Assembly: GCF_004168035.1 (NCBI RefSeq)
Contig: NZ_SDPU01000022.1
Location: forward strand, 124,001 to 188,000
Direction: 5' to 3'
Source of the DNA: Nocardioides iriomotensis
Lineage (GTDB): Bacteria; Actinomycetota; Actinomycetes; Propionibacteriales; Nocardioidaceae
Length of the DNA stretch: 64,000 nt
The position numbers were made by a program, and so were the translations under genes. This document shows positions 37,162-52,557 of this stretch, piece by piece. The first letter of the stretch is position 1, and every line of letters starts with the position of its first letter. Under the pieces are notes generated by a model that saw only the letters and a list, made by a program, of their open reading frames with translations, did no database searches and was not told the origin of the DNA.

Positions 37162-37169
<8 letters not shown>

Positions 37170-38628
37170 CCCCAAGGGCTTCCTGAAGGACGGCCGCGAG
37201 GTCGCGACCCGCCGTCCCGTCGACGAGCGGGTGCAAGACTGGAACGAGGTCTACCCCGAGGGGGCGGGCCGTTCCCTGCTGCCGATCATCACCAAGCAGG
37301 CCGGGCGCTGCATGGACTGCGGCATCCCGTTCTGCCACCAGGGCTGCCCGCTCGGCAACATCATCCCCGAGTGGAACGACCTGGTCTGGCGCGACGACTG
37401 GGAGGGCGCGACCGAGCGCCTGCACGCGACGAACAACTTCCCGGAGTTCACCGGGCGGCTGTGCCCGGCGCCGTGCGAGACCGCCTGCGTCCTCGGCATC
37501 AACCAGGACCCGGTGACCATCAAGAACGTCGAGGTGGCCATCGCCGACAAGGCGTGGGACTCCGGCTTCGTGCGGCCGCAGCCGCCGGAGTGGCTGACCG
37601 GCAAGACCGTCGCGGTCGTGGGCTCCGGCCCGGCCGGCCTCGCCGTCGCGCAGCAGCTCACCCGGGCCGGTCACACCGTCGCGGTCTACGAGCGCGCCGA
37701 CAAGGTCGGCGGCCTGCTGCGCTACGGCATCCCCGAGTTCAAGATGGAGAAGAAGTACCTCGACCGGCGCCTCGACCAGATGCGCCGCGAGGGCACGATC
37801 TTCCGGGCCGGCGTCGACGTCGGCTCCGAGGTGACCGGCGACCAGCTGCGCGAGCGGTTCGACGCCGTCGTCCTCGCCGTCGGCGCCACCGCCGCGCGTG
37901 ACCTGCCGATCCCCGGCCGCGAGCTCGCCGGCATCCACCAGGCGATGGAGTTCCTGCCCCAGTCCAACCGCGCCTCGCTCGGCGAGGACGTCGAGGACCA
38001 GATCACCGCCACCGGCAAGCACGTCGTGATCATCGGCGGCGGCGACACCGGTGCGGACTGCCTCGGCACGTCGCACCGCCAGGGCGCGAAGTCCGTGACG
38101 CAGCTGGAGATCATGCCGCAGCCGGGGGAGGAGCGCCCGGCCGGCCAGCCGTGGCCGACGTACCCGATGCTGTTCCGCGTCTCGTCCGCGCACGAGGAGG
38201 GCGGCGAGCGGGTCTACTCCGTGTCGACCAAGGAGTTCCTGGGCGACGACCAGGGCAACGTCCGGGCGCTGCGCCTGGTCGAGGTGGAGATGAAGGACGG
38301 CCGGTTCTCTGACGTCGAGGGCTCGGAGCGCGAGATCCCGGCCGAGCTGGTCCTGTTCGCGATGGGCTTCACCGGCCCGGAGCAGGACGGAGTCCTGGCG
38401 CAGCTGGGCGTCGAGCTCGACGAGCGCGGCAACATCAAGCGCGATGCGGCGTACCACTCCACGGTGCCGGGTGTCTTCGTTGCCGGCGACGCAGGTCGTG
38501 GCCAGTCCCTGATCGTCTGGGCGATCGCCGAGGGCCGGGCCGCGGCGGCTGCCGTCGACACGCACCTCACGGGTGCGACCACACTGCCGGCGCCGATCAA
38601 GCCGACCGAGCGTCCGCTGGTCGTCTGA
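37162..38628 (+). CDS. gltD: glutamate synthase small subunit
   Basis: 488 residues. Supplies electrons from NADPH via FAD and two 4Fe-4S clusters to GltB. N-terminal cluster ligands are in [17 protein letters not shown] and [15 protein letters not shown] binds at [17 protein letters not shown] near residue 151 and NADPH at [15 protein letters not shown] near residue 289. ATG 37162 overlaps gltB. The stop lies in the loop of a terminator-like hairpin. Confidence 0.97.
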
Positions 38629-38641
38629 CGACCAGCGGACG
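38611..38641 (+). terminator. hairpin across the gltD stop codon
   Basis: CGTCCGCTGGTC (38611-38622) pairs perfectly with GACCAGCGGACG (38630-38641); the seven-base loop holds the gltD TGA. No U-tract follows, as usual in GC-rich actinobacteria. Confidence 0.6.
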
Positions 38642-38667
38642 GGCGGGCTTGGATCGTTCAAGTCCGC

Positions 38668-38673
38668 TAGGCT
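38668..38673 (+). promoter_or_regulatory. -10 box for leaderless pyk
   Basis: TAGGCT followed by TCGGGC and the GTG at 38680. Confidence 0.65.
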
Positions 38674-38679
38674 TCGGGC

Positions 38680-40128
38680 GTGCGTAGAGCCAAGATCGTC
38701 TGCACCCTCGGTCCCGCCACCTCCTCCCCGGAGTCGATCCGGGCGCTCGTCGACGCCGGCATGGACGTCGCTCGGATGAACATGAGCCACGGGAGCCACG
38801 CCGACCACGAGAAGGTCTATCGGATGGTCCGCGAGGCCTCCGACGCCACCGGTCACGCGATCGGCATCTTCGCGGACCTGCAGGGGCCGAAGATCCGGCT
38901 CGGGAAAGTATCGGCTGGGCCGTGCCAGCTGGAGGAGGGTGCGACCTTCACGATCACCACGCGTGAGGTGCCGGGCGACACGGAGATCTGCTCGACGACG
39001 TACGACGGTCTCCCCGGCGACGTCGCGAAGGGCGACCAGATCCTCATCGACGACGGCAAGGTGCGACTCGAGGTGCTCGAGGTCGACGACACCGACGTGA
39101 CGACCAGGGTGGTCGTGCCCGGACCCGTCAGCGACAACAAGGGCATCAACCTGCCCGGCGTCGCCGTGTCGGTGCCGGCCCTGTCCGAGAAGGACAAGGA
39201 GGACCTGCGCTTCGCGCTGCACCTCACGGTCGACTTCATCGCGCTGTCGTTCGTGCGCTCGGCCAAGGACGTCGAGGACGTCCGGATGGTCATGCACGAG
39301 GAGGGCATCTTCCTGCCGGTGATCGCGAAGATCGAGAAGCCGCAGGCGATCGACAACATCGAGGGGATCGTCGACGCGTTCGACGGCTTCATGGTGGCGC
39401 GCGGCGACCTCGGCGTGGAGTGCCCGCTGGAGGACGTCCCGTTCCTGCAGAAGCACGTGATCGACGTCGCCCGCCGCCACGCCAAGCCGGTCATCGTCGC
39501 CACGCAGATGCTCGAGTCGATGATCACCAACCCGCGCCCGACCCGCGCCGAGGCGTCCGACGTCGCCAACGCCGTGCTCGACGGCGCCGACGCCGTGATG
39601 CTGTCCGGCGAGACCAGCGTCGGTGACTGGCCGACCGAGACGGTCGAGACGATGGCCCGGATCATCGAGTCCACCGAGGTGCACGGCCTCGGCCGGATGA
39701 CCGCCATCGACTGGCAGCCCCGCACCCGTGGCGGCGTCATCGCCAAGGCGGCCGCCGAGGTGGCGCAGCGGGTCGGCGCGAAGTACCTCGTCGCGTTCAC
39801 GCAGAGCGGCGACTCCGCCCGCCGGCTGTCGCGCTACCGCGGACCGATCCCGATGATCGCGTTCACGCCCGTCGCGGCGGTCCGCTCCCAGCTCGCGCTG
39901 TCGTGGGGCATCGAGACGTTCAAGGCGCCCGAGGTCGAGCACACCGACGAGATGGTGCGCCAGGTCGACGAGCACCTGCTGAAGATCAACCGGGTCGTCG
40001 AGGGCGACCTCGTGGTGATCATCGCGGGCAGCCCACCCGGCCTTCCCGGCTCCACCAACGCGCTGCGCATCCACCGCATGGGCGACGCGATCAACGAGGT
40101 GGCACCGGCGTACCGTCGCTTCGGCTGA
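38680..40128 (+). CDS. pyk: pyruvate kinase
   Basis: 482 residues, normal length. RAKIVCTLGPATSS opens the protein; DLQGPKIRLG, the catalytic-Lys signature PVIAKIEKPQAIDNI near residue 215, MVARGDLGVE, and KPVIVATQMLESMI follow. The C-terminal domain has FTQSGDSARRLSRYR, the allosteric phosphate-binding loop. Makes pyruvate and ATP from PEP and ADP. GTG 38680 sits six bases after a -10 box and should head a leaderless mRNA. Converges on the LAGLIDADG gene with three bases between stops. Confidence 0.97.
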   Translation: MRRAKIVCTLGPATSSPESIRALVDAGMDVARMNMSHGSHADHEKVYRMVREASDATGHAIGIFADLQGPKIRLGKVSAGPCQLEEGATFTITTREVPGDTEICSTTYDGLPGDVAKGDQILIDDGKVRLEVLEVDDTDVTTRVVVPGPVSDNKGINLPGVAVSVPALSEKDKEDLRFALHLTVDFIALSFVRSAKDVEDVRMVMHEEGIFLPVIAKIEKPQAIDNIEGIVDAFDGFMVARGDLGVECPLEDVPFLQKHVIDVARRHAKPVIVATQMLESMITNPRPTRAEASDVANAVLDGADAVMLSGETSVGDWPTETVETMARIIESTEVHGLGRMTAIDWQPRTRGGVIAKAAAEVAQRVGAKYLVAFTQSGDSARRLSRYRGPIPMIAFTPVAAVRSQLALSWGIETFKAPEVEHTDEMVRQVDEHLLKINRVVEGDLVVIIAGSPPGLPGSTNALRIHRMGDAINEVAPAYRRFG

Positions 40129-40131
40129 GGC

Positions 40132-40911
40132 TCAGCTCTTCGGGCCGACCAGCTCGTCCAGCCGCGCCACCCCGGCCCGCGTCGACACCGACACCGTCCA
40201 GCGGCCACTGCGTCGCCACGGCACCTCGACGAGGTCGAGCGCGTCGGTGCACCAGCCGAGGATCTGCTCGGACCGGTTCACGAACTGCCACCGGGCGTAG
40301 TCGTAGCGCTTCGTCTCTCCCGCGACCGTCCGGGTCGCCCAGTTGGCGACGCGGGCGCCGTCGGAGTGGAACAGCCCGCGCAGGAAGTCGCCCGGGCGGC
40401 GTTCGACGACCTGCCACTGCCAGTCCTCCATCGGCAGCACCCGCTCGTGCTTGCGGCCGGGGCCGTGCTGGGGGAGCAGGCAGGGCCAGTGGTTCCAGCC
40501 CACGGAGATCGTGCAGGAACCGTTGCGAAGCCGTCGGTGCGGTCTACCGCCGGGCTTCACCAGACGGAGCAGCTCCTCGACCCGGTCGTTCAGGTCGGTG
40601 TAGGTCGCATCGTTGTAGATGTGCAGCGTGAAGACCCCACGTGGTGATGTCTCGATCCACCCGTCGCCCAGGTACCAGCCGAGGAGCTCGGCGTATGCCT
40701 CATCTGCGAGCGTGGCATCGCCGCAACGAGGGCACGGAACTCGGGTGTGCGCTTGGCCGCGTGGTCTCCCGCGGCGTTGGTAGAGGCGTCGCCAGCGTCG
40801 GATGGTCTTGACCGCCACACCGTGCTGGGCGGCGTTCTCCGCATCGCCGACACCAGCGTCTGACGCGGCGAGCGCTGAGGCGACGAGCTCGTCGGCGCGG
40901 ACGTGGACCAT
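40132..40911 (-). CDS. LAGLIDADG-type protein with helix-turn-helix N-terminus
   Basis: 259 residues. Residues 1-55 look like a helix-turn-helix (AENAAQHGVAVKTIRRWRRLYQRRG). A CPRC half zinc ribbon follows. Two LAGLIDADG-like motifs, YAELLGWYLGDGWI near residue 94 and GDFLRGLFHSDGARV near residue 178, are spaced as in a monomeric homing endonuclease; the acidic Asp is present in both. Such proteins may be endonucleases or regulators that have lost cutting activity. ATG 40911 is chosen as the first start after the tRNA gene; the longer open frame runs into tRNA-Leu. It lies 48 bases downstream of the tRNA on the same strand and may be co-transcribed with it. Confidence 0.72.
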   Translation of the reverse strand: MVHVRADELVASALAASDAGVGDAENAAQHGVAVKTIRRWRRLYQRRGRPRGQAHTRVPCPRCGDATLADEAYAELLGWYLGDGWIETSPRGVFTLHIYNDATYTDLNDRVEELLRLVKPGGRPHRRLRNGSCTISVGWNHWPCLLPQHGPGRKHERVLPMEDWQWQVVERRPGDFLRGLFHSDGARVANWATRTVAGETKRYDYARWQFVNRSEQILGWCTDALDLVEVPWRRSGRWTVSVSTRAGVARLDELVGPKS

Positions 40912-40958
40912 GCCGTGATCGTGGCGGCCCGCGCCGACAGTTCGGCGCGGGCATCCAC

Positions 40959-41045
40959 TGGTGCCGGGTGTGGGACTTGAACCCACACGCCCTTTCGGGC
41001 AATGGTGTTTGAGACCATCGCGTCTGCCGATTCCGCCAACCCGGC
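40959..41045 (-). tRNA. tRNA-Leu (anticodon CAA)
   Basis: On the minus strand the acceptor arms GCCGGGT and ACCCGGC pair fully, followed by ACCA with an encoded CCA end. The anticodon loop CTCAAAC between ATGGT and ACCAT gives anticodon CAA, reading UUG. The long variable arm (GCCCGAAAGGGC type) and GTTCAAGTCC T-loop confirm a class II tRNA-Leu. Length 87 bases. Confidence 0.96.
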
Positions 41046-41062
41046 CGCCGGTGACGGAGCCA

Positions 41063-41068
41063 ACCGTA
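41063..41068 (-). promoter_or_regulatory. possible -10 box of tRNA-Leu
   Basis: TACGGT on the minus strand, 17 bases before the tRNA 5' end. TTGGGC 15 bases upstream could be the -35. It overlaps the -35 region of the divergent promoter. Confidence 0.4.
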
Positions 41069-41081
41069 GCCGAGAAACCCC

Positions 41082-41110
41082 TTGCCCAATCTCTACTGAC
41101 TCACTATAGT
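41082..41110 (+). promoter_or_regulatory. sigma70-like promoter of a 57-residue ORF
   Basis: TTGCCC (41082-41087) and TATAGT (41105-41110) with a spacer of exactly 17 bases. This is one of the best vegetative promoters in the window. Confidence 0.7.
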
Positions 41111-41139
41111 TTGAATCCGGAACGTCAGAGGGAGGGAAC

Positions 41140-41313
41140 GTGCGCGGACTCAAGGACCTGGTCGACCGGTTGAACCGTCAGAGCCAGGAACGGGCGCGCG
41201 CCAACGCCCGCGCGGCCGCGACCGAGCTGTCTCGGGCGCGCGTCGAGCGCGAGGAGGTCGAGCTGTTCCTCGCGGCCCACGCCCCGCGCCGCCGGGTGAG
41301 CCGCACAGCCTGA
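41140..41313 (+). CDS. small basic helical protein (57 aa), unrecognised
   Basis: GTG at 41140 with AGGGAGGGA six bases upstream and a strong promoter 30 bases further up. The 57 residues are highly charged and should form one long amphipathic helix (GLKDLVDRLNRQSQERARAN, then VEREEVELFLAAHAPRRR). No family is recognised. It ends 47 bases before pdtaR. It could be a real small protein or a leader peptide; promoter, ribosome site and codon bias support translation. Confidence 0.65.
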   Translation: MRGLKDLVDRLNRQSQERARANARAAATELSRARVEREEVELFLAAHAPRRRVSRTA

Positions 41314-41347
41314 CCGACCGGCCGGTGCGACCGGCGCGGCCCCCGGA

Positions 41348-41353
41348 TAATCT
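41348..41353 (+). promoter_or_regulatory. -10 box for leaderless pdtaR
   Basis: TAATCT followed by seven bases and the GTG at 41361. Confidence 0.6.
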
Positions 41354-41360
41354 GAGCCGC

Positions 41361-41996
41361 GTGACCGCACCGCAGGAGACCCCCGTCCGCCGCGTCGTCA
41401 TCGCGGAGGACGAGGCGCTCATCAGGCTCGACCTCGCCGAGATGCTCGGCGAGGAGGGGTACGACGTCGTCGGCCAGGCCGGCGACGGCGAGCGGGCCGT
41501 CACGCTCGCCGAGGAGCACCGTCCCGACCTGGTCGTGCTCGACGTGAAGATGCCCAAGCTCGACGGGATCAGCGCCGCCCAGCGGATCGCCGAGCAGCGG
41601 ATCGCGCCGGTCGTCATCCTGACGGCGTTCAGCCAGCGCGACCTCGTCGAGCGTGCGCGCGACGCCGGCGCGATGGCCTACCTGGTCAAGCCGTTCACCA
41701 AGAGCGACCTCGTCCCCGCGATCGAGATGGCCGTGAGCCGGTTCGCCGAGCTCCAGCTGCTCGAGGCCGAGGTCGCCGACCTGTCGGAGCGGCTCGAGAC
41801 GCGCAAGGCCGTCGACCGTGCGAAGAGCATCCTGCAGAAGCAGCTCGGCCTCTCCGAGCCCGACGCCTTCCGCTGGATCCAGAAGACCGCGATGGACCTC
41901 CGGCTGTCGATGCGGCAGGTCGCCGACGGGGTCGTGCAGCACGGTCCGAGCGTCGGTGGCGCGGCCGGCAGCGCCGTCGGCGGCGGAGACGCCTGA
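41361..41996 (+). CDS. pdtaR: PdtaR-type response regulator with ANTAR domain
   Basis: 211 residues. Receiver domain (residues 10-130) with RRVVIAEDEALIRLDLAEML, phosphoacceptor Asp in LVVLDVKMPKLDG near residue 65, and switch Lys in AYLVKPFTKSDL. The C-terminal ANTAR domain (ERLETRKAVDRAKSILQKQ, then DAFRWIQKTAMDLRLSMRQVA) binds paired RNA hairpins and prevents termination. It matches Mycobacterium Rv1626. A cognate PdtaS kinase is not in the window. Start is GTG 41361, supported by the -10 box seven bases upstream. Confidence 0.93.
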   Translation: MTAPQETPVRRVVIAEDEALIRLDLAEMLGEEGYDVVGQAGDGERAVTLAEEHRPDLVVLDVKMPKLDGISAAQRIAEQRIAPVVILTAFSQRDLVERARDAGAMAYLVKPFTKSDLVPAIEMAVSRFAELQLLEAEVADLSERLETRKAVDRAKSILQKQLGLSEPDAFRWIQKTAMDLRLSMRQVADGVVQHGPSVGGAAGSAVGGGDA

Positions 41997-42120
41997 CACA
42001 GACAATTCCGACTATTTCGGACATCGTCCGAGCGTCGGCCTGGGGGAGGTCACGAAATGGCAACGACCCTCCACCAATTTCGTCAGAGGTCGCCAGAAAC
42101 AAGGGGTTTTGGCGCTAGGT

Positions 42121-42138
42121 TCGCTCTCGCAAGAGCGA
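42121..42138 (+). other. hairpin in livJ leader
   Basis: TCGCTCT and AGAGCGA enclose a four-base loop (CGCA), about 55 bases before the livJ start. The 195-base gap before livJ also holds a TAGGTT -10-like box (42116-42121). Confidence 0.45.
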
Positions 42139-42191
42139 CCCTGGGTCCCTGAGTCCGGGTATCGCTGACTCTCCTGACGACGGAGGCCCCA

Positions 42192-43484
42192 TTGATTCGC
42201 CCCAACCGCGCCTGGCGCGCAGCTGCGGTCCTCGCGACCGCGGCGCTGGTGCTCACCGCCTGCGGCAGTGACACCGAATCGGACAGCGCTGACGAGCCCA
42301 CCAACAGTGCCAGTGCCTCGGGCGACGAGAGCCCGGCCGCTGAGCCCAAGGGCGACGGCACGCTGCGCATCGGCTCGCTGCTCCCGCAGACCGGTGACCT
42401 CGCGTTCCTCGGCCCGCCGGAGTTCGCCGGTGTCGACCTGGCCATCAAGGACATCAACGCCGCCGGCGGTGTCCTCGGTCAGGACATCGAGGAGTTCGAC
42501 GCCGACTCCGGTGACGGTACGCCGGACATCGCCGGCTCCGAGGTCGACAAGCTGTTCAACCAGAAGGTCGACGCCATCGTCGGCGCGGCCGCCTCGGGTG
42601 TGTCCGTGTCCGTGATCGACAAGATCACCGGCGCGGGTGTCGTCCACTTCTCGCCGGCCAACACCGCGGCGGGCTTCGACACCTACGACGACAACGGCCT
42701 CTACTTCCGCACGGCCCCGTCCGACCGTCTGCAGGGCCAGGTTCTCGCGAACCTCGCCGTCGAGGACGGCTTCTCCAACGTCGCCATCATGGCGCGCCAG
42801 GACTTCTACGGTGAGGGTCTCGCCGAGCAGGTGAAGTCCACGCTGGAGGAGAAGGGCGCCACAGTCAGCGAGTACGTCCTGTACTCCGCCGACGCGCAGA
42901 ACTTCACCGCCGAGGTCAACAAGGTCGCCGCCTCCAAGCCCGACGCCATCGTGCTGGTGGCCTTCGAGGAGACCACGAAGATCGTCCCGCAGCTCATCGC
43001 CAAGGGGGTCGGCCCGCAGGACGTCCAGCTCTACTTCGTGGACGGCAACACGGCCGACTACTCCAGCGAGAACTTCGACCTCGCTGGCGTCAAGGGCACC
43101 ATCCCGGTCCCGGCCGAGGTCGACGAGTCGTTCAACGACCGCCTCCTCGAGATCAACCCCAAGCTGAAGGACTTCTCCTACAGCGCCCAGTCGTACGACG
43201 CCGTCGTGATCATCGCGCTCGCGGCGATCGCGGCCGGTGACGACTCCGGTGAGGCCGTCGGTGCCAACATCATCGACGTCACCAAGGACGGCACGCAGTG
43301 CTCGTCCTTCGAGGAGTGCGCCAAGCTGCTCGAGCAGGGCGAGGACATCGACTACGAAGGTGCCTCCGGCCCGACCGACATGAACGACACCGGTAGCCCG
43401 GCCTCCGGCACCATCGGTGTCCAGCTGTACTCGAAGGACAACAAGTACAAGCAGGTCGACGCGGTCTCCGGCGTCGTCAACTGA
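42192..43484 (+). CDS. livJ: branched-chain amino-acid ABC transporter binding lipoprotein
   Basis: 430 residues. Lipobox LVLTACGSD near residue 21 shows a membrane-anchored lipoprotein; a Ser/Asp/Glu-rich linker follows. The type I periplasmic-binding fold (Peripla_BP_6) opens with LRIGSLLPQTGDLAFLGPPEFAGVDLAIKDINAAGG. VGAAASGVSVSVIDKITGAGVVHFSP is the hinge region with ligand-binding Ser. Branched-chain amino acids are the likely ligands, but related receptors bind amides or urea. TTG 42192 has GGAGG six bases upstream. The transporter genes lie downstream on the opposite strand. Confidence 0.92.
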   Translation: MIRPNRAWRAAAVLATAALVLTACGSDTESDSADEPTNSASASGDESPAAEPKGDGTLRIGSLLPQTGDLAFLGPPEFAGVDLAIKDINAAGGVLGQDIEEFDADSGDGTPDIAGSEVDKLFNQKVDAIVGAAASGVSVSVIDKITGAGVVHFSPANTAAGFDTYDDNGLYFRTAPSDRLQGQVLANLAVEDGFSNVAIMARQDFYGEGLAEQVKSTLEEKGATVSEYVLYSADAQNFTAEVNKVAASKPDAIVLVAFEETTKIVPQLIAKGVGPQDVQLYFVDGNTADYSSENFDLAGVKGTIPVPAEVDESFNDRLLEINPKLKDFSYSAQSYDAVVIIALAAIAAGDDSGEAVGANIIDVTKDGTQCSSFEECAKLLEQGEDIDYEGASGPTDMNDTGSPASGTIGVQLYSKDNKYKQVDAVSGVVN

Positions 43485-43526
43485 TCCACCCGAGCGCCCC
43501 GGACGTCTGACGTTCTGACAGCTCAG

Positions 43527-43558
43527 CGAAGGGCCCGGCCGCAAGGCCGGGCCCTTCG
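43527..43558 (+). terminator. rho-independent terminator of livJ
   Basis: A 14-base-pair perfect stem (CGAAGGGCCCGGCC and its complement) with loop GCAA, 42 bases after the livJ stop and followed by TCGTT. Confidence 0.85.
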
Positions 43559-43824
43559 TCGTTGGCGCTCCGTGGCTGGCACTACGTCTCGCTGTGGCCG
43601 CGCGCCGCTACCAGGGCCACCTTGCCTTCTCGGGCTCCCGCAGGCCCTGCGCACGTGCGGTCCCTGCGGGGCGGTGACGGTCAGTTCCACACGTCCTCGC
43701 CTAGCGGCTCGTCGCGCGGAACGGACCCCTCACCGCAGGGCTCGTGGTGGCCCCACTGCCTCCCTGCTGGCTGTCGTGCAGGCCAGTCCCTGCCTGGCGC
43801 CTTCCTGCCTCCGGTGCACAGCAA
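43559..43824. other. non-coding stretch between the two liv terminators
   Basis: About 266 bases, GC-rich with many CCTGC runs. No ORF with codon bias, promoter or RNA structure could be supported. Confidence 0.5.
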
Positions 43825-43858
43825 AGGGCCCCGGCCGCCTGTCGGCGGCCGGGGCCCT
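43825..43858 (-). terminator. terminator of livHMGF operon
   Basis: A 15-base-pair perfect stem (AGGGCCCCGGCCGCC and complement) with loop TGTC, 18 bases after the livF stop. On the minus strand it is followed by TTGC. Confidence 0.85.
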
Positions 43859-43876
43859 CTGCGTCGTGCTGGGTTG

Positions 43877-44689
43877 CTAGGCCTTGGCCAGCGTGCCCAG
43901 GTAGAGCTCGATGACCTTGGGGTCGTTGGCGAGCTGCTTGCCGGTGCCGGTGTAGGCGTTGCGGCCCTGGTCGAGCACGTAACCGCGGTCGCAGATCTGC
44001 AGGCAGCGGCGGGCGTTCTGCTCGACCATGACGACCGAGACGCCGGCGCGGTTGATGCGCCGGGTCTGCACGAACACCTCGTCCTGCATGACGGGGGAGA
44101 GGCCCGCGGAAGGCTCGTCGAGCAGCAGCACGGACGGCTCCATCATGAGCGCGCGGCCCATGGCGACCATCTGCCGCTCACCACCGGACAGCGACCCGGC
44201 ACGTTGGGCACGACGGTCGACGAGGGCGGGGAACAGCTCACCGACGAAGTCGAATCGCTTCTTGAACGACTTCGGGCGCTGGAAGACGCCCATCTCCAGG
44301 TTCTCCTGGATGGTGAGCGACGGGAACACGTTGTTCGTCTGGGGGACGAAGCCGATGCCCTTCGTCACCAGCGCGTCGGCGCGCTGGTTGGTGACGTCGT
44401 CGCCGTTGAGGGAGACCGTGCCGGTGTTGATCTTCACCAGGCCGAAGAGCGCCTTGAGCAGCGTCGACTTGCCGGCCCCGTTCGGGCCGATGATGCCGAC
44501 GAGCTCTCCCTGCTGGCAGTAGAGGTCGGCGCCGTTGAGGATGTTCACCCCTGGCAGGTAGCCGGCGATGAGGTCGTCGGCCCGCAGGACGGCGCCCTCG
44601 GCGTTCTTGAGGTGCTCCTCGCGGCCGGGGACCTCGAGGTCCGACCGCGACTCGACCGCAGCGTCCGGGGTCTGGTTCTCGTCGGTCAC
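43877..44689 (-). CDS. livF: branched-chain amino-acid ABC transporter ATPase LivF
   Basis: 270 residues. Walker A GPNGAGKST near residue 69, signature LSGGERQ, Walker B VLLLDEPSAGLSP and switch His replaced region VMVEQNARRCL, which is typical for LivF (Gln-Asn-Ala). An acidic extension of about 35 residues precedes the domain. Powers the LivHM permease. GTG start overlaps the livG stop. Confidence 0.94.
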   Translation of the reverse strand: MTDENQTPDAAVESRSDLEVPGREEHLKNAEGAVLRADDLIAGYLPGVNILNGADLYCQQGELVGIIGPNGAGKSTLLKALFGLVKINTGTVSLNGDDVTNQRADALVTKGIGFVPQTNNVFPSLTIQENLEMGVFQRPKSFKKRFDFVGELFPALVDRRAQRAGSLSGGERQMVAMGRALMMEPSVLLLDEPSAGLSPVMQDEVFVQTRRINRAGVSVVMVEQNARRCLQICDRGYVLDQGRNAYTGTGKQLANDPKVIELYLGTLAKA

Positions 44690-45648
44690 TGGGGCTCCTC
44701 CTGCTTGGCGGCGATCTCAGCCTCGGCAGCGGCGAGGATCTGCTCCTCCTGCTCCTCGGAGATGTCGGTGTCGTGGTGCGCGCCGAGGTAGGCGTCGATG
44801 ACGCGCTGGTCGGCCATGACGGCGTCGGGCGGGCCCTCGGCCACGATCTTCCCCTGGGCCATGACGATGACCCAGTCGGAGATGTCGCGGACCATGTCCA
44901 TGTCGTGCTCGACGAAGAGAACCGAGCGGCCCTCGTCGCGCAGCGACTTCACGTGACCGAGCAGCGACTGCTTCAGCGCCGGGTTCACGCCCGCCATCGG
45001 CTCGTCGAGCATGACCAGCTCCGGGTCGGCCATCAGCGCGCGAGCCATCTCGAGCAGCTTGCGCTGACCGCCCGAGAGCGAGCCGGCGAAGTCGTCCTTC
45101 TTCTTGATCAGGAGGAAGCGCTCCAGCAGGCCGTTAGCCCGCTCGGTGTTCGCGTTCTCCTGGCCGCGCCAGAGCGGGGCGAACATCGCCGACCGGAGCT
45201 TCTCGCCCTTCTGCCCGGTGGCGCCGACGCGCATGTTCTCCATGACCGTGAGCTTGGAGAGCACCTTGGTCAGCTGGAAGGTGCGGACCATGCCCATGCG
45301 GGCCACCTTGTACGCCGGCACCTTGCCGAGGCTGGTGCCGTTGAACGACCACTCGCCCGCGTCGGGCCGGTCGAAGCCGGTCAGCAGGTTGAAGAAGGTG
45401 GTCTTGCCGGCACCGTTGGGCCCGATCAGCGCGGTGATGACGCCACGCTGGATCTCGACGTGCTCGACGTCGACGGCGATGAGGCCGCCGAACATGCGGC
45501 GTACGCCGTCGGCAACCACGATCGGGTCGGGCTTCTTCGAGCCCGGCTCGTGCGCTACGTCGCCGAGCGCGCGGCGCGCGGCGCCGATGTCGACGCCGGT
45601 CTCGTTCTGGACTTCCACGGTTGTGGAGTCGCTCGCGTCAGCGGGCAT
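44686..45648 (-). CDS. livG: branched-chain amino-acid ABC transporter ATPase LivG
   Basis: 320 residues. Walker A GPNGAGKTT near residue 75, signature LSGGQRKLLE, Walker B LVMLDEPMAGVNP and switch His in VLFVEHDMDMVRD. The C-terminus has a long acidic extension (HHDTDISEEQEEQILAAAEA), not usual in LivG. ATG 45648 lies inside the 3' end of livM (11-base overlap), so translation is coupled. Confidence 0.94.
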   Translation of the reverse strand: MPADASDSTTVEVQNETGVDIGAARRALGDVAHEPGSKKPDPIVVADGVRRMFGGLIAVDVEHVEIQRGVITALIGPNGAGKTTFFNLLTGFDRPDAGEWSFNGTSLGKVPAYKVARMGMVRTFQLTKVLSKLTVMENMRVGATGQKGEKLRSAMFAPLWRGQENANTERANGLLERFLLIKKKDDFAGSLSGGQRKLLEMARALMADPELVMLDEPMAGVNPALKQSLLGHVKSLRDEGRSVLFVEHDMDMVRDISDWVIVMAQGKIVAEGPPDAVMADQRVIDAYLGAHHDTDISEEQEEQILAAAEAEIAAKQEEPQ

Positions 45649-46633
45649 CGATCGCCAGCTCCCTTCGGTCTCCCAGGATTCCCTGTGGTCTGAAGATCAT
45701 CAGCAGCATCAGCCCGAGGCCGACGAGGATGAAGCGCATGATGCTGGCCTGGCTGGAGTCCATGATCCAGCTCGGGATCAGCGGGTCGGGACCGCTGGTG
45801 GCCTGGCTGAAGAACGACCCGAAGAAGTTGATCAGGAACCAGAAGACGATGGCGCCGAGGACGGGCCCGAGCACCCGGGCGGCACCGCCGATCAGCAGCG
45901 CGGTGTAGGCGAAGAACGTCACGTCGGTGGCGAAGAAGGACGGACCGACCGCGGCGGACCGCAGTGACGTCATGAAGCCGGCCAGGCCACCGATGACGCC
46001 ACCGATGATCAGGGCCTGCATCTTGTAGGAGTAGACGTTCTTGCCGAGCGAGCGCACGGCGTTCTCGTCCTCGCGGATCGACTTGAGCACCCGGCCCCAC
46101 GGGCTGCGCATCAGCAGCCAGACGATCACGCAGCACACCGCGACGAGCGCCCAACCGACGGTCATGACCCACGCGTCGTAGGCGCCCCACGAGACGATGC
46201 CGAGGTCGATCGGGCCGTTGTACGGGTTGGCGGCGCGGAACCCGGGGATGAAGTCCGTGATGCCGTCCTGGCCGCCGAACGTGTCCGAGAACGCCGCCGC
46301 ACCGACCGTCTGCCGGATGATCTCGGCGGCCGCGATGGTGACGATGGCGAGGTAGTCGGCGCGCAGTCGCAGGGTCGGGACACCGAGCAGCAGCGCGAGG
46401 CCGACACAGAGCAGCAGGCCCACCACGGTGCCGACCCAGAGCGACGACCCGAAGATCGTCACGGCGCCGCCGATGGAGTAGCCGGCGACCAGCATGAAGC
46501 CGGCCTGGCCGAAGTTGAGCAGGCCGGTGTAGCCGAAGTGGATGTTGAGGCCGATCGCGGCCAGGCAGTAGATGATCGCCGTCGGGCCGAGCGCCTGCTG
46601 GACCGCGAAGCCGAAGAGATTGGTGATGTCCAT
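45638..46633 (-). CDS. livM: branched-chain amino-acid ABC transporter permease LivM
   Basis: 331 residues with about nine membrane helices. GYTGLLNFGQAGFMLVAGYS near residue 35 and the coupling segment RSPWGRVLKSIREDENAVRSLGKNVYSYK are diagnostic of LivM. ATG 46633 is chosen because GGGAAGG lies nine bases upstream. The very long open frame extending to 48217 is only a shadow of livH. Confidence 0.94.
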   Translation of the reverse strand: MDITNLFGFAVQQALGPTAIIYCLAAIGLNIHFGYTGLLNFGQAGFMLVAGYSIGGAVTIFGSSLWVGTVVGLLLCVGLALLLGVPTLRLRADYLAIVTIAAAEIIRQTVGAAAFSDTFGGQDGITDFIPGFRAANPYNGPIDLGIVSWGAYDAWVMTVGWALVAVCCVIVWLLMRSPWGRVLKSIREDENAVRSLGKNVYSYKMQALIIGGVIGGLAGFMTSLRSAAVGPSFFATDVTFFAYTALLIGGAARVLGPVLGAIVFWFLINFFGSFFSQATSGPDPLIPSWIMDSSQASIMRFILVGLGLMLLMIFRPQGILGDRRELAIDAR

Positions 46634-46647
46634 GCGACGTCCTTCCC

Positions 46648-48036
46648 TCAGCCGACCCGCTGGGCCCGGCCGAGCAGACCCTGGGGACGGATGAGCAGCA
46701 CCACGATCAGCAGCAGCAGTGCGCCCACGAACTTGAACTCGGCCGGCACGAACAGCGTGCTGAGCTCGGTGAAGAGGCCGATGATGAACGCGCCGACGAT
46801 GGCGCCCCAGATGGTGCCCAGGCCGCCGAGAACGACGGCGGCGAAGACGAGCAGCAGGATCTTGAAGCCGATCTGGTAGTCGAAGCCCTGCGTGAGCCCG
46901 AGGAGCGCGCCCGACAGGCCGGCGAGGGCGGTGCCGCCGATCCACACGAGCGAGATCACTCGCTCGACGTTGATGCCCGTGGCGGAGGACAGTGCGGGAT
47001 TGTCGGCGACGGCGCGGGTGGCCTTGCCGATCCGGGTGAACTGCAGCAGCGAGGTGGTGACCACCAGAACACCCATCGCCAGCAGGAACACGAGGAGCTC
47101 CTTGGGGGTCAGCAGGACCGGCCCGATCTCCCAGGGCGTGACGGCGGCGTACTGCGAGTAGTTCTGGCTCTGCGCGCCCCCGATGTACTGGTAGACGCTG
47201 CGCAGGAACAGCGACAGGCCGATGCTGACGATCATCATGGCGATCAAGCCGGTGCCGCGCCGGCGCAGCGGCCGCCACAGAGCGGCGTCGTTGAGCCAGC
47301 CGAAGGCCCCCCCGAGGACGAACGCGGCGATGACGCCGATGATCACGGTGACCTCGACACCGCCGATCGAGATCGTGCCGGGCAGCCTGTCGATCGCGAG
47401 CGCGACGAGCGCGCCGAACGTGATCAGCTCGCCGTGGGCGAAGTTGGTGAGGCCGGTGGTGCCGAAGACCATCGACAGGCCGAGTGCGGCCATCGCCAGC
47501 AGGGCCGAGAACACGAGGCCGCCGACCGCGAGCTGGAGGGCCTGGGCGGCGAACCCGGTGCCTCCCGGCCCGGCGGCGCCGATCGGGAACGTCACCGAGA
47601 CGTCGTTGTCGAGGTTGATCGGCAGCTTGCGCGTGAGCACCTCGGGCTCGGTGTCCTCGGGCAGCGAGTCCTCGTTGATCTTGACGGTGAACGTCTTGCC
47701 GAGCAGCGACACCGCGGCGCCGGGCAGGTCGACGACGAAGGTGCCGTCGGCACCGGACGTGGCCTCGCCGACGACCTTGCCGGCGTCGTCCTCGACCGTC
47801 ACGTCGACGCCCTCGACGGGCACCTGCGGGTCCTCGCGCCGGTCGCAGATGCGGCCGAGGATGGAGATCGTGTCGTCGTCTGTGGGCTTGGGCAGCGCGC
47901 ACTCGGCGGCGGCGCCGGACGCCGCGGCCTGGGTGGCAGGGGAGGCGGTCGCAGCGGACACCGTCCCCCCGGTCAGCACCAGCGCGGTGACCAGCAGCGC
48001 CAGCAGCGCGGCCAAGCGGATCGGGCGGGCGTGCAT
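46648..48036 (-). CDS. livH: LivH permease with secreted N-terminal domain
   Basis: 462 residues, about 160 more than a usual LivH. Residues 1-30 look like a cleavable signal peptide (RLAALLALLVTALVLTGGTV). Residues 45-150 resemble a carboxypeptidase-regulatory or Ig-like beta domain (VPVEGVDVTVEDDAGKVVGE, then SGADGTFVVDLPGA) with two Cys. The permease follows: GLSMVFGTTGLTNFAHGELITFGAL, TRIGKATRAVADNPALSSATGIN, and a C-terminal LIRPQGLLGR. The extra domain would lie outside the membrane near the receptor. First gene of livH-livM-livG-livF. Confidence 0.92.
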   Translation of the reverse strand: MHARPIRLAALLALLVTALVLTGGTVSAATASPATQAAASGAAAECALPKPTDDDTISILGRICDRREDPQVPVEGVDVTVEDDAGKVVGEATSGADGTFVVDLPGAAVSLLGKTFTVKINEDSLPEDTEPEVLTRKLPINLDNDVSVTFPIGAAGPGGTGFAAQALQLAVGGLVFSALLAMAALGLSMVFGTTGLTNFAHGELITFGALVALAIDRLPGTISIGGVEVTVIIGVIAAFVLGGAFGWLNDAALWRPLRRRGTGLIAMMIVSIGLSLFLRSVYQYIGGAQSQNYSQYAAVTPWEIGPVLLTPKELLVFLLAMGVLVVTTSLLQFTRIGKATRAVADNPALSSATGINVERVISLVWIGGTALAGLSGALLGLTQGFDYQIGFKILLLVFAAVVLGGLGTIWGAIVGAFIIGLFTELSTLFVPAEFKFVGALLLLIVVLLIRPQGLLGRAQRVG

Positions 48037-48079
48037 GGGACTCCTGTCGCCTCGGATTCCGTGGATCGGGACGGGCGGG

Positions 48080-48085
48080 ACTATA
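48080..48085 (-). promoter_or_regulatory. -10 box of livHMGF operon
   Basis: TATAGT on the minus strand, about 45 bases before the livH ATG. A -35 element was not found at normal spacing. Confidence 0.5.
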
Positions 48086-48182
48086 GCGACACGTACGTCG
48101 AGCGCCCCTCCGCCCGGCGTGAGTCCCGCCGGCGTCCCTCTCGTTTCTGCACCCTAAAACCATCCCGGCGCCCCCGGGACTG

Positions 48183-48205
48183 TTTGCGGCAAGGTTTTGC
48201 GGCAA
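48183..48205. repeat. tandem TTTGCGGCAA repeat upstream of livH
   Basis: TTTGCGGCAA occurs at 48183-48192 and 48196-48205, 13 bases apart, about 100 bases upstream of the livH -10 box and 62 bases past the end of the DUF554 gene. The pair looks like two regulator sites. Confidence 0.5.
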
Positions 48206-48267
48206 CAAACCGGTCACGCTCTCGCGGGACGACGTCCCGGTCCCGTGACCACCGTCTCGCGGCGCGG

Positions 48268-49026
48268 TCAGCGCAGCGCGATCACGAGCGCCGTGAGCAG
48301 CGGGGCGAGCACCAGGCCGGGCAGCAGGTCACCCACCGGGAGCTGCTTGATCCGGAGCAGCCGCAGCGCGACGCCTACCAGCATCAGGCCGCCCGTGGCG
48401 CCGAGCGCGGCGACGTGCGCGTCCGGGAGGACGTCGCCGAGCAGCATCCCGACGACGGTGAGCGAGCCCTGCACCGCGACGAGGGCGATCGCGCTGGCGC
48501 CGACGCCCCAGCCGAACGACGCGGCGAACGCGATCGCGGCGAACCCGTCGAGCGCCGCCTTGAGGAAGAGCTGGTCGGCGCCGTTGCCGAGCCCGTCGTT
48601 GAGCGAGCCCAGGATGGTCAGCGGGCCGACGCAGAACACCAGTGAGGCGGTGAGGAAGCCCTCGATGAACCGCTGCCGCTCCGCGCCGTCGCCGCGGCGG
48701 CCCGCGCGCGCCTGGAGCCGGGTCTGCAGCCAGCCCCCGAAGCGTTCGAGCCGGTCCTCGATGCCGAGCAGGGACCCGACGACGCCGCCGAGGACGAGCG
48801 ACGCCAGCACGATCAGCATCGGGGCGCTCGAGCCCACCGCGTCGACGAGGGCTGCGTCGCCGACAGCCATGGCCGCCGTACCGGCGATGAGGAGGGTGAC
48901 CAGGCCGAGCGCGTCGGTTACCACGTCCCGGGTACGGTGTGACAGCCGGTGCCCGACGAGCACGCCGATCACCGTGCCGAGCAGCACCGTGGCGACATTG
49001 ACGAGGGTGCCGATGCCGGGGAACAC
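48268..49026 (-). CDS. DUF554 membrane protein
   Basis: 252 residues, seven or eight helices. GTLVNVATVLLGTVIGVLVGHRL at the N-terminus, FIEGFLTASLVFCVGPLTILGSLNDGL near residue 120 and LKAALDGFAAIAFAASFGWGVG are the conserved DUF554 segments. Function unknown, probably transport. GTG start at 49026 with AGGAG about ten bases upstream. Divergent from the GNAT gene. Confidence 0.92.
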   Translation of the reverse strand: MFPGIGTLVNVATVLLGTVIGVLVGHRLSHRTRDVVTDALGLVTLLIAGTAAMAVGDAALVDAVGSSAPMLIVLASLVLGGVVGSLLGIEDRLERFGGWLQTRLQARAGRRGDGAERQRFIEGFLTASLVFCVGPLTILGSLNDGLGNGADQLFLKAALDGFAAIAFAASFGWGVGASAIALVAVQGSLTVVGMLLGDVLPDAHVAALGATGGLMLVGVALRLLRIKQLPVGDLLPGLVLAPLLTALVIALR

Positions 49027-49055
49027 GGTGCCGCCGCTCCTGGAACAAGGTTGAA

Positions 49056-49071
49056 ATCCGGACTACCGGAT
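49056..49071. repeat. inverted repeat between DUF554 and GNAT genes
   Basis: ATCCGG and CCGGAT flank four bases. It lies in the 182-base divergent region, near TAATCT (49088-49093), a possible -10 for the GNAT gene. Confidence 0.4.
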
Positions 49072-49208
49072 CTGTCGGTTCTAGGCGTAATCTCTCACCT
49101 CAGTCCGGTTCGTCTGTCTCGGGGTGTCTCCAGCGACCGGTTCCGTCGCAAGACCTCCCTCGCAACTACGTGAATCGTCGCCGGACGACCGGCTGGGAAG
49201 AGGTGCCC

Positions 49209-49799
49209 GTGTTCCGCAGCGCCGTGACGGTCCGCGACGCCGACCTCGGAGACGTCGAGGCGCTCCGCTTCGTGATGGCGGGCGCCGCCGGGCCGATCGT
49301 CGACGAGACGCCGGGGGAGGCCGACTCCGCCGTCGCGCGGATCAACGCCGACCCCGACCAGCGGCTGCTCGTGGCGCTCCTCGACGGCCAGGTGGCCGGC
49401 GCGGCGCACCTGGTCCGGGCGCCCGTGTCGCCCCTCCAGTCGGCCCAGGCGGTGCACATCCTGCACCTGCACGTCCTCGACGAGTGCCGCCGTCGCGGCG
49501 TCGGCACTGCGCTGATGGAGGCCGCGGTCGCGTGGGCGGAGGAGAAGGACACCGCCCATGTGGTGGCGGCCGCGAACGTCGGGTCCCGCGACGCCAACCG
49601 CTTCATGGCCCGGCTCGGGCTCAGCCAGCTCGCCGTCGTCCGTGCGGCACCCGTCGCCGCGCTGCGCGCCAAGCTGCCCGTCGAGGCGCCGGCGGTCTGT
49701 CTCGACAACCGCATCTCCAACCGCCAGAGCACCCGCACCGTCGGCCAGGTCCTGGCCCGCCGGCGCTCGCTACGACGGGCGCAGACCAAGACCTCCTGA
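49209..49799 (+). CDS. GNAT-family acetyltransferase
   Basis: 196 residues. VRDADLGDVEALRFVMAGAA is the first strand-helix, and VHILHLHVLDECRRRGVGTALMEAAVAWA contains the acetyl-CoA motif RRRGVG near residue 100. AANVGSRDANRFMARLGL is the C-terminal helix pair. Substrate unknown. GTG 49209 is chosen because GAAGAG lies six bases upstream and the GNAT domain starts immediately after; GTG 49170 and 49203 are in-frame alternatives. A basic tail (LARRRSLRRAQ) ends the protein. Confidence 0.85.
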   Translation: MFRSAVTVRDADLGDVEALRFVMAGAAGPIVDETPGEADSAVARINADPDQRLLVALLDGQVAGAAHLVRAPVSPLQSAQAVHILHLHVLDECRRRGVGTALMEAAVAWAEEKDTAHVVAAANVGSRDANRFMARLGLSQLAVVRAAPVAALRAKLPVEAPAVCLDNRISNRQSTRTVGQVLARRRSLRRAQTKTS

Positions 49800-49848
49800 C
49801 GGCCGCCGTACCCCCGACGGCGCCCCCGTCACCGTCGGTGCCGGCCAC

Positions 49849-49854
49849 TAGGGT
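49849..49854 (+). promoter_or_regulatory. -10 box for leaderless polA
   Basis: TAGGGT followed by GGCCAC and the GTG at 49861. Confidence 0.65.
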
Positions 49855-49860
49855 GGCCAC

Positions 49861-52557
49861 GTGCCTGACACCGCCCCTGACGCGCGTCCCCGCCTGCTGC
49901 TGCTCGACGGCCACTCGCTGGCCTACCGGGCGTTCTTCGCGCTGCCGGTGGAGAACTTCTCGACGACGACCGGGCAGCCGACCAACGCCGTCTACGGCTT
50001 CACCTCGATGCTCATCAACGTGCTGCGCGACGAGCAGCCGACCCACGTGGGCGTGGCCTTCGACAAGTCGCGGCAGACGTTCCGGCTCGAGCAGTACTCC
50101 GACTACAAGGCCAAGCGCAACAAGACCCCGACGGAGTTCTCCAGCCAGCTGCCGCTGATCAAGGAGGTCCTCGACGCGCTCAACATCCGCCACCTCGACC
50201 TCGAGGGCTACGAGGCCGACGACATCATCGCGACGCTGACGACCCAGGCCACCGCCGAGGGCATGGAGGTGCTGCTGCTCACCGGCGACCGCGACTCGCT
50301 GCAGCTCGTGTCCGACGACGCCACGGTCCTCTACCCCACGCGCGGGGTCTCCGAGCTGTCCCGCATGACTCCCGCGGCCGTCGAGGACAAGTACGGCGTG
50401 CCGCCGTCCCGCTACCCCGAGCTCGCCGCCCTCGTCGGGGAGGACTCCGACAACCTGCCGGGCGTGCCCGGCGTCGGGCCGAAGACCGCCGCCAAGTGGA
50501 TCGCCACCTACGACGGCCTGGACAACGTGATCGCCCACGCCGACGAGATCAAGGGCAAGGCCGGCGACAACTTCCGCGAGCACCTCGGCGACGTGATCCG
50601 CAACCGGCAGCTCAACGCCCTGGTCTGCGACCTGGCGCTCGCCGTCACCCCGACCGACCTGGCCAAGCAGCCGTGGGACCGGCAGGCCGTGCACACGCTG
50701 TTCGACGGCCTGGAGTTCCGGGTGCTGCGCGACCGGCTGTTCCAGGAGCTGACGTCCGAGGAGATCCTCGAGGAGGTCGACTTCGACCTCGACATGACGC
50801 GGCTGCAGGAGGGGGAGCTGGCCGGCTGGCTCGCCGCGCACTCGCAACCCGACGCCCTGGTCGGCATGGTCGTGCAGGGCACCTGGCAGGCCGGCACCGG
50901 CGACGTCTTCGCCATCGCGCTCGCGGCTGGCGACGAGGCCGCCGCCTGGATCGACGTCGAGCGGCTGTCCGCGGGCGACGAGCAGGTGCTCGCCGACTGG
51001 CTGGCCGACGGTCGGTTCCGCAAGGTGCTGCACGACGCCAAGGGCCCGATCCTGGCCCTGGCCGCCCGCGGCTGGCAGTTCGTCGGGCTGGAGCGCGACA
51101 CCGCGCTGTCGGCGTACCTCGCCCGCCCGGACCAGCGTTCCTACGACCTCGCCGACCTGACTCTGCGCTACCTCAAGCGAGAGTTGAAGCTGTCGACCGA
51201 CGACTCCGACGAGGGCCAGCTGAGCTTCGACTCCGTCGGTGACGACGGCACCGGCGACACGGCCATGCTTCAGGCCTGGACGGTGCTCGAGCTCGCCGCC
51301 GCGCTCGACGAGGAGCTCGGCAAGGGCGGCGGCACCCGGCTGCTCGGCGAGATCGAGCTGCCCCTGATCGGCGTGCTGGCCCAGATGGAGCGCACCGGCG
51401 TCGCGGTCGACGTCGACCAGCTGCAGGCGCTCGAGTCGCACTTCGCGGGCGAGGTGAAGCTCGCCGCCGACGCGGCGTTCGAGCAGATCGGCAAGGAGAT
51501 CAACCTCGGGTCGCCCAAGCAGCTCCAGGTCGTGCTGTTCGACGAGCTCGGGATGCCGAAGACCAAGCGCACCAAGACCGGCTACACCACCGACGCCGAC
51601 GCGCTGCAGGCGCTGTACGTCAAGACCGAGCACCCGTTCCTCATGCACCTGCTGCGGCACCGCGACGTCTCGCGGCTGCGGCAGACCGTCGAAGGTCTGC
51701 TCAAGACCGTCGCGTCCGACGGGCGGATCCACACGACGTTCAACCAGCTCATCGCGGCCACGGGCCGGCTGTCATCCACCGACCCCAACCTGCAGAACAT
51801 CCCGGTGCGCACCGAGGAGGGCCGCCGCATCCGCGAGGCCTTCGTCGTCGGGGCGGGCTTCGCCACCCTGATGACGGCCGACTACAGCCAGATCGAGATG
51901 CGGATCATGGCGCACCTGTCCGAGGACGACCTGCTGATCGAGGCGTTCCGGTCAGGCCGCGACTTCCACGCCGCCACCGCCGCCCGCGTCTTCGACGTCG
52001 ACGCCGCCGAGGTGACGACCGAGATGCGCGCCAAGATCAAGGCGATGAACTACGGCCTCGCCTACGGCCTGTCCGCCTACGGCCTGTCCCAGCAGCTCGG
52101 CATCGACACCGGCGAGGCGCGCGGGCTGATGGACGAGTACTTCGAGACGTTCGGCGGCATCCGCGACTACCTCGGCGGCATCGTCGACGAGGCCCGCCGC
52201 ACCGGCTACACCGAGACCATCTACGGCCGCCGCCGCTACCTGCCCGACCTGACCAGCGACAACCGCCAGCGCCGCGAGATGGCCGAGCGGATGGCGCTCA
52301 ACGCCCCGATCCAGGGGTCGGCCGCCGACATCATCAAGGTCGCCATGCTGCGCGTCGACGAGGCGCTGCGCGAGGCGAAGCTGAGGAGCCGGATGCTGCT
52401 CCAGGTCCACGACGAGCTCGTGTTCGAGGTGGCCGCGGGGGAGGAGCAGCAGCTCGACGAGCTCGTGCGCCGCGAGATGGCCGGCGCCGCCGAGCTGACC
52501 GTGCCGCTGGACGTCTCGGTCGGGACCGGCAGTTCGTGGCACGAGGCTGCGCACTAG
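49861..52557 (+). CDS. polA: DNA polymerase I
   Basis: 898 residues. 5'-3' exonuclease (1-300) with LLLDGHSLAYRAFFAL, EADDIIATLT and LVGEDSDNLPGVPGVGPKTA. The 3'-5' exonuclease fold (about 310-490) lacks an intact DEDD set, so no proofreading is expected. The polymerase (about 500-898) has TADYSQIEMRI, the O-helix RREMAERMALNAPIQGSAAD region and LLQVHDELVFEV with the catalytic Asp. Used in repair and Okazaki-fragment processing. GTG start six bases after a -10 box; no ribosome site. Confidence 0.97.
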   Translation: MPDTAPDARPRLLLLDGHSLAYRAFFALPVENFSTTTGQPTNAVYGFTSMLINVLRDEQPTHVGVAFDKSRQTFRLEQYSDYKAKRNKTPTEFSSQLPLIKEVLDALNIRHLDLEGYEADDIIATLTTQATAEGMEVLLLTGDRDSLQLVSDDATVLYPTRGVSELSRMTPAAVEDKYGVPPSRYPELAALVGEDSDNLPGVPGVGPKTAAKWIATYDGLDNVIAHADEIKGKAGDNFREHLGDVIRNRQLNALVCDLALAVTPTDLAKQPWDRQAVHTLFDGLEFRVLRDRLFQELTSEEILEEVDFDLDMTRLQEGELAGWLAAHSQPDALVGMVVQGTWQAGTGDVFAIALAAGDEAAAWIDVERLSAGDEQVLADWLADGRFRKVLHDAKGPILALAARGWQFVGLERDTALSAYLARPDQRSYDLADLTLRYLKRELKLSTDDSDEGQLSFDSVGDDGTGDTAMLQAWTVLELAAALDEELGKGGGTRLLGEIELPLIGVLAQMERTGVAVDVDQLQALESHFAGEVKLAADAAFEQIGKEINLGSPKQLQVVLFDELGMPKTKRTKTGYTTDADALQALYVKTEHPFLMHLLRHRDVSRLRQTVEGLLKTVASDGRIHTTFNQLIAATGRLSSTDPNLQNIPVRTEEGRRIREAFVVGAGFATLMTADYSQIEMRIMAHLSEDDLLIEAFRSGRDFHAATAARVFDVDAAEVTTEMRAKIKAMNYGLAYGLSAYGLSQQLGIDTGEARGLMDEYFETFGGIRDYLGGIVDEARRTGYTETIYGRRRYLPDLTSDNRQRREMAERMALNAPIQGSAADIIKVAMLRVDEALREAKLRSRMLLQVHDELVFEVAAGEEQQLDELVRREMAGAAELTVPLDVSVGTGSSWHEAAH

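Follow-up and report, generated by a model that had tools for sequence, protein, structure and literature searches.

The stretch of DNA analysed here, referred to as the window, comprises 64,000 nucleotides of the genome of Nocardioides iriomotensis and carries a group of genes in which a LivH-like permease is encoded beside a second permease, two ATPases, and a binding protein (Table 1). The LivHMGF-J and UrtABCDE importers have the same five parts, namely two PF02653 permeases, two ATPases, and one PF13458 lipoprotein. The wider neighbourhood consists of gltD, a pyruvate kinase gene, an ANTAR regulator gene, livJ, livFGMH, a DUF554 gene, an acetyltransferase gene, and polA. By homology, the substrate would be an amino acid, and branched-chain amino acid transport is a putative function on the same grounds.

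Table 1. Importer genes and the parts of the long LivH-like protein, in window coordinates.
Feature	Position	Strand	Remarks
livJ-like binding lipoprotein, convergent to livF	42192..43484	+	PF13458; lipobox LTAC recognised by eye
livF-like ATPase	43877..44689	-	profile matches
livG-like ATPase	44686..45648	-	profile matches
livM-like second permease	45638..46633	-	331 aa; PF02653; without an extension like that of LivH
livH-like permease gene with exported N-terminal domain	46648..48036	-	462 aa; ATG start at 48036, stop codon ends at 46648
Signal peptide, residues ~1-28	47953..48036	-	sequence and model helix 4-21; cleavage site judged by eye
Linker, residues ~29-54	47875..47952	-	pLDDT below 50 at residues 24-42
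Beta-sandwich domain, residues 55-156	47569..47874	-	prealbumin / CarboxypepD_reg / CnaB-like fold
Permease part, residues 162-462	46651..47553	-	nine predicted transmembrane helices; PF02653

For comparison, we used the best 80 loci from a scan of named genomes, ranked by full-length score, a sample that favours extended forms of LivH. The usual gene order is livH-M-G-F, and in 60 of these 80 loci livJ is the next recognised gene, on the opposite strand. The initial annotation had pointed to livJ lying on the other strand, and this convergent placement is indeed conserved, but it has no bearing on docking between the two proteins. In two loci livJ is on the same strand (L095 and L132), one locus has an extra ATPase match between livF and livJ (L100), and in 17 of the 80 livJ was unrecognised, partly because of contig ends. 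Within the stretches around these best 80 loci, polA was recognised in 51 and an ANTAR response regulator gene in 32, and the grouping of polA, the liv block, the ANTAR response regulator, pyruvate kinase, and gltD is recurrent (window positions 37162-52557; loci L064-L143). In L086, L094, L116, and L132, the regulator and polA flank the block the other way round, and in L118 the regulator alone was recognised on the opposite side. Since the window shares this recurrent set of neighbours, we infer that its liv block is probably an old chromosomal resident and not a mobile operon. In one genome of the same family (G066, locus L156), pyruvate kinase and the ANTAR regulator flank a different liv operon whose LivH is short, and another importer is thus encoded at the equivalent position of the chromosome.

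The regulator beside the block, which we take to be pdtaR, belongs to the RNA-binding ANTAR type, and its position next to an amino-acid importer makes regulatory control worth testing. Over positions 40000-50000, Rfam gave only one tRNA above its curated score, with six other matches below theirs, so an RNA element in the operon was rejected as far as Rfam matches in that range are concerned. An open reading frame of 284 aa on the minus strand (40132-40986) overlaps the end of the tRNA gene (40962-41045, minus strand); by eye its product resembled a relative of homing endonucleases, but no Pfam family matched it at E ≤ 1e-5.

In the LivH-like protein, the PF02653 profile (BPD_transp_2) matches residues 171-445 (E 5.7e-39) with a score of 134.3 bits, above the curated cut-off of 26.8, and the approximately 160 residues before the permease begin with a hydrophobic, signal-peptide-like stretch, followed by a linker and a beta domain. 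Given that canonical LivH has about 300 residues, one might suppose that the far start is an artefact and that the true protein begins near the first permease helix. An AGGAG ribosome-binding site lies 5′ of the far ATG, however, and third-position GC is 0.95-0.98 in each segment, including the extension, from codon 1; because it matches that of the permease part, the extension is coding. Together with the conservation of the signal peptide and the domain as protein throughout the phylum, these observations lead us to reject a start-site artefact, for which we see practically no room. Thus, the extra residues with a signal peptide and a beta domain described in the initial annotation are confirmed by the open reading frame, the coordinates, the coding bias, and conservation in the phylum, and an exported domain on a LivH-like permease is well supported. 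In fact, because the same design recurs across Actinomycetota, the long LivH is real and old and not a gene-calling error.

Canonical LivH and UrtB are without an N-terminal domain, unlike the window protein, as seen in three annotated controls (308, 308, and 299 aa), and the two other LivH-like matches in the window genome are also short (294 and 292 aa). Some proteobacterial UrtB proteins may have a longer N-terminus; the one UrtB among our controls is short. The window protein scores 131.4 bits against the NCBIfam LivH equivalog NF008011, which has a cut-off of 379, and is thus a LivH homologue but not the named equivalog; with the UrtB equivalog TIGR03409 it reaches 139.5 bits against a cut-off of 250.3. 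In the part of the literature that was covered, mostly titles and abstracts, we found no LivH with such a domain.

Two surveys provide fairer counts than the 80 loci, all of which have at least 88 residues ahead of the FGTT motif of the first-helix region, as may be expected of a biased sample. In the family (100 genomes), 62 rows were strong matches (E ≤ 1e-60), and in 61 of them the alignment starts no later than query residue 66; that of the remaining one (G084) begins at residue 160, yet its locus encodes the domain, so that all 62 strong family matches carry it. A fragment match in G062 spans residues 7-183, and ten further rows (E 7.4e-36 to 5.8e-31) align over the permease only. In the phylum survey of 296 genomes, 60 genomes had a match at E ≤ 1e-40, and there were 55 strong rows (E ≤ 1e-65, in 51 genomes), and in 51 of these the alignment begins no later than residue 91. 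Of the remaining four, three end at contig ends (L145, L160, and G165), and in L145 and L160 the last part of the domain is still encoded there; the fourth, in G222 (locus L144), is truly without the domain. In ten weaker rows the alignment starts at residue 155 or beyond. The extended form is therefore found in nearly all strong matches in Actinomycetota, and the view that LivH is normally short holds for the controls but not for the actinobacterial orthologue, in which the long form is the rule.

Phyla beyond Actinomycetota were covered by the named-genome scan and by tblastn against plasmids. The best 80 loci of the scan come from Nocardioides, Aeromicrobium, Arthrobacter, Nonomuraea, Glycomyces, Geodermatophilus, Nanopelagicales, Acidimicrobiaceae, and others, and all but one, a Rubrivirga, are labelled Actinomycetota. 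This exception (L121) is a MAG contig labelled Rubrivirga (Bacteroidota), in which LivH groups with Nanopelagicales rows and polA and ANTAR neighbours are present; it was probably wrongly binned. Among 216 plasmid records matched by tblastn, two cover at least 80% of the query, one from Arthrobacter and one from Nonomuraea. There is an 11.85-Mb Nonomuraea record filed as a plasmid (NZ_LT559118.1), whose size suggests a chromosome. In L154 (G332), a livH-like gene near 4641-5500 has other hydrophobic segments in place of the beta domain in the upstream frame, possibly a second kind of N-terminal extension.

When the permease part was used on its own for a tree (138 rows, made by a quick method with SH-aLRT support only and with several long branches among the short forms), the 124 extended rows fell on one side of a branch (SH-aLRT 94); they are joined by the domain-less L144 with a support of 99, and 13 short forms lie outside. 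A recent fusion in this genome is ruled out by this tree and by the two surveys. L144 branches as the sister of the extended rows taken together, so it may either have lost the domain or reflect the condition before the domain was gained, both of which fit. In this locus, a signal-peptide-like start runs straight into the permease, and the H-M-G-F order with a convergent livJ is kept. The domain-less form is present in 7 of 150 genomes of the same genus; identity is 95-100% in six of them and 85% in the other. Such proteins, with a signal-peptide-like start and without the beta domain (L144 and L174-L180), are a natural control for the domain.

The export signal deserves attention in its own right. 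In the AlphaFold2 model, the window protein has a helix at residues 4-21 (pLDDT around 61-78 by block), followed by the linker, in which residues 24-42 are modelled as disordered. A lipoprotein is ruled out, as no lipobox was found in the window protein or in any of 77 relatives, three of the 80 loci (L092, L113, and L125) having been left out of the signature and co-divergence counts because their signal peptide was not recovered. An A-x-A motif after the hydrophobic core is present in 70 of these 77 relatives, compared with 41.6 expected from shuffled segments; the starts of the relatives were picked by a score that includes hydrophobicity, which somewhat favours the signal-peptide rate. The model further contains nine transmembrane helices, and the counts of lysine plus arginine are three in loop 334-356, three in the C-terminal tail, one each in loops 217-229 and 260-263, the latter after an RPLRRR stretch, and zero in the others. 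Since nine helices combine with positively charged loops and tail on the inside, the C-terminus is predicted to be inside and the N-terminus outside. According to PMC3098086, the crystallised BtuC-type permeases have an N-terminal helix that UrtB lacks, in line with an N-terminus of LivH that lies outside. With such an orientation, a signal peptide would allow an exported domain to be added to the permease.

The same feature of UrtB could be used to argue for another arrangement, in which the signal peptide is not cleaved but acts as a first transmembrane helix like helix 1 of BtuC, and the beta domain is an insertion in the first outside loop. The structural alignment made with VIA-align agrees with this, as it pairs residues 1..454 of the model with BtuC and HmuU, starting at the first helix of each. 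The excess of A-x-A motifs speaks for cleavage, on the other hand, and the model is uncertain in exactly this region, with pLDDT below 50 in the linker and modest values in the helix itself. AlphaFold2 sometimes puts signal peptides against membranes, which also counts against an uncleaved anchor, and we consider this arrangement quite improbable. It is even harder to believe that the domain is no more than a passenger, bearing the signal peptide and aiding targeting or insertion of an N-out permease but playing no part in the finished importer. The domain-less relatives did keep the signal peptide, so that export of the N-terminus may be what counts; LivH-like permeases without a signal peptide are common, however, as the three controls and the two paralogues of the window genome illustrate, so the permease itself needs none, and the fact that the domain has been kept across the phylum suggests that it is of use.

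As to what is exported, the AlphaFold2 model of the whole protein shows seven beta strands between residues 58 and 152, with pLDDT of 86-97 per ten-residue block over residues 51-150, and the isolated domain reaches a mean pLDDT of 90. VIA-align gives Z scores of around 10-11 between model residues ~53-157 and the SdrD B, CnaB2, and transthyretin-like domains, and the Foldseek TM scores by query length are 0.71 for GBS52, 0.68 for SdrD, and 0.63 for CnaB2. When the sequence of the whole protein was searched against solved structures, nothing matched up to E 1, and a profile of 56 domains searched against the PDB has SdrD as its best match (E 1.3e-10). CarboxypepD_reg (PF13620) matches 50 of the 56 members at E ≤ 0.001, a threshold used for the members in place of the curated cut-offs; the domain of the window protein is itself under the curated cut-off (23.0 against 32.3 bits), and thus we name the fold and claim no family membership. 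With this provision, the Ig-like or carboxypeptidase-regulatory type of domain proposed initially is borne out by both the profile and the structural alignments, and judging from the models the fold is a seven-stranded sandwich of CarboxypepD_reg / prealbumin-like topology, close to CnaB.

The resemblance to CarboxypepD_reg, prealbumin-like, and CnaB proteins (PF13620, PF17802, SdrD B) is one of fold and profile, whereas the LivH domain differs from them in being a single copy, attached to an importer permease, and without a conserved isopeptide triad. No alignment column has lysine, asparagine, or cysteine in at least 40% of the 56 members, so there is no conserved isopeptide bond or disulphide, and an isopeptide CnaB domain is ruled out. 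The near-invariant residues (G86, G98, L125, and P126) look structural. Elsewhere in the genome, the domain has a single weak match (E 0.39, 25% identity), and a further copy was thus rejected.

The nearest solved folds are wall-anchored adhesin and pilin domains and S-layer or transthyretin-like proteins, and one may imagine the domain as a spacer or a contact with the cell wall that supports the importer or its mouth against peptidoglycan or some other part of the envelope and does not handle LivJ. Fast evolution in which structural residues alone are kept, as well as the wide distribution of the family in Actinomycetota, would be in line with this, but a common fold is no proof of function, and the domain varies little in length and occurs once per protein in the rows examined, whereas spacer domains often differ in copy number. 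We consider such a role somewhat unlikely.

The initial annotation suggested that the domain could dock LivJ. In a co-divergence test with the window and the 54 of the 80 loci in which the five genes are complete and the convergent livJ is of sufficient length (55 rows), the partial rank correlation between the distances of the domain and LivJ was 0.10 (bootstrap -0.05 to 0.22; the test is a weak one), compared with 0.20 for the domain and the permease and 0.17 for the domain and LivM; co-divergence of the domain with LivJ was thus not above background in these 55 rows. Mean pairwise identity in the same rows is 0.35 for the domain, 0.54 for LivJ, and 0.57 for the permease, the domain being the least conserved and fastest-evolving of the six parts compared. 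With no specific co-divergence, the lowest conservation, and near relatives without the domain, docking finds no backing here. It is possible nevertheless, and given the weakness of the test, a role in binding LivJ may be one that tolerates sequence change. A stronger version, in which the beta domain is a docking module acquired once and early in Actinomycetota that holds or gates LivJ at the mouth of the importer, seems to us unlikely; if true, it would be a cell-envelope solution undescribed for the LivHMGF-J class of importers.

For a permease with a folded extracytoplasmic part beside the binding protein, there is a known counterpart in MalF of the maltose importer, which belongs to an unrelated permease family and in which the P2 part is an internal loop, in contrast to the N-terminal domain of LivH with its own signal peptide. 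The P2 loop of MalF moves around MalE, according to PMC8134467, and activation has been ascribed to this loop in works cited there. Our preferred explanation covers both the architecture and the role of the domain, and as a whole we assign it a probability of roughly 0.5. In it, LivH is one permease half of an ABC importer of the LivHMGF-J type with its N-terminus outside the membrane, a cleavable signal peptide exports the small beta-sandwich, and a few residues tether this domain to the first transmembrane helix. The signal peptide, the fold of the domain, the nine-helix N-out permease, the operon, and the phylum-wide conservation are predicted with good support. The domain would be an accessory module at the outer face, outside the core transport machinery, as relatives without it exist and it evolves fast; the domain-less members indicate that it is not needed everywhere. 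By analogy with what has been reported for the P2 loop, it would most likely modulate the way in which LivJ engages with or departs from the permease, or stabilise the complex on its outer side.

We regard the long LivH as an architectural variant, shared across the phylum, of an already known type of importer, and it illustrates how the short, standard label of "branched-chain amino acid permease" can hide an exported domain that is present throughout a phylum. The members with the domain and their near relatives without it form a natural pair, which makes the role of the domain directly testable. If the domain acts on LivJ or on the outer mouth of the importer, amino-acid uptake in the whole phylum would use a part that is absent from the textbook importer.
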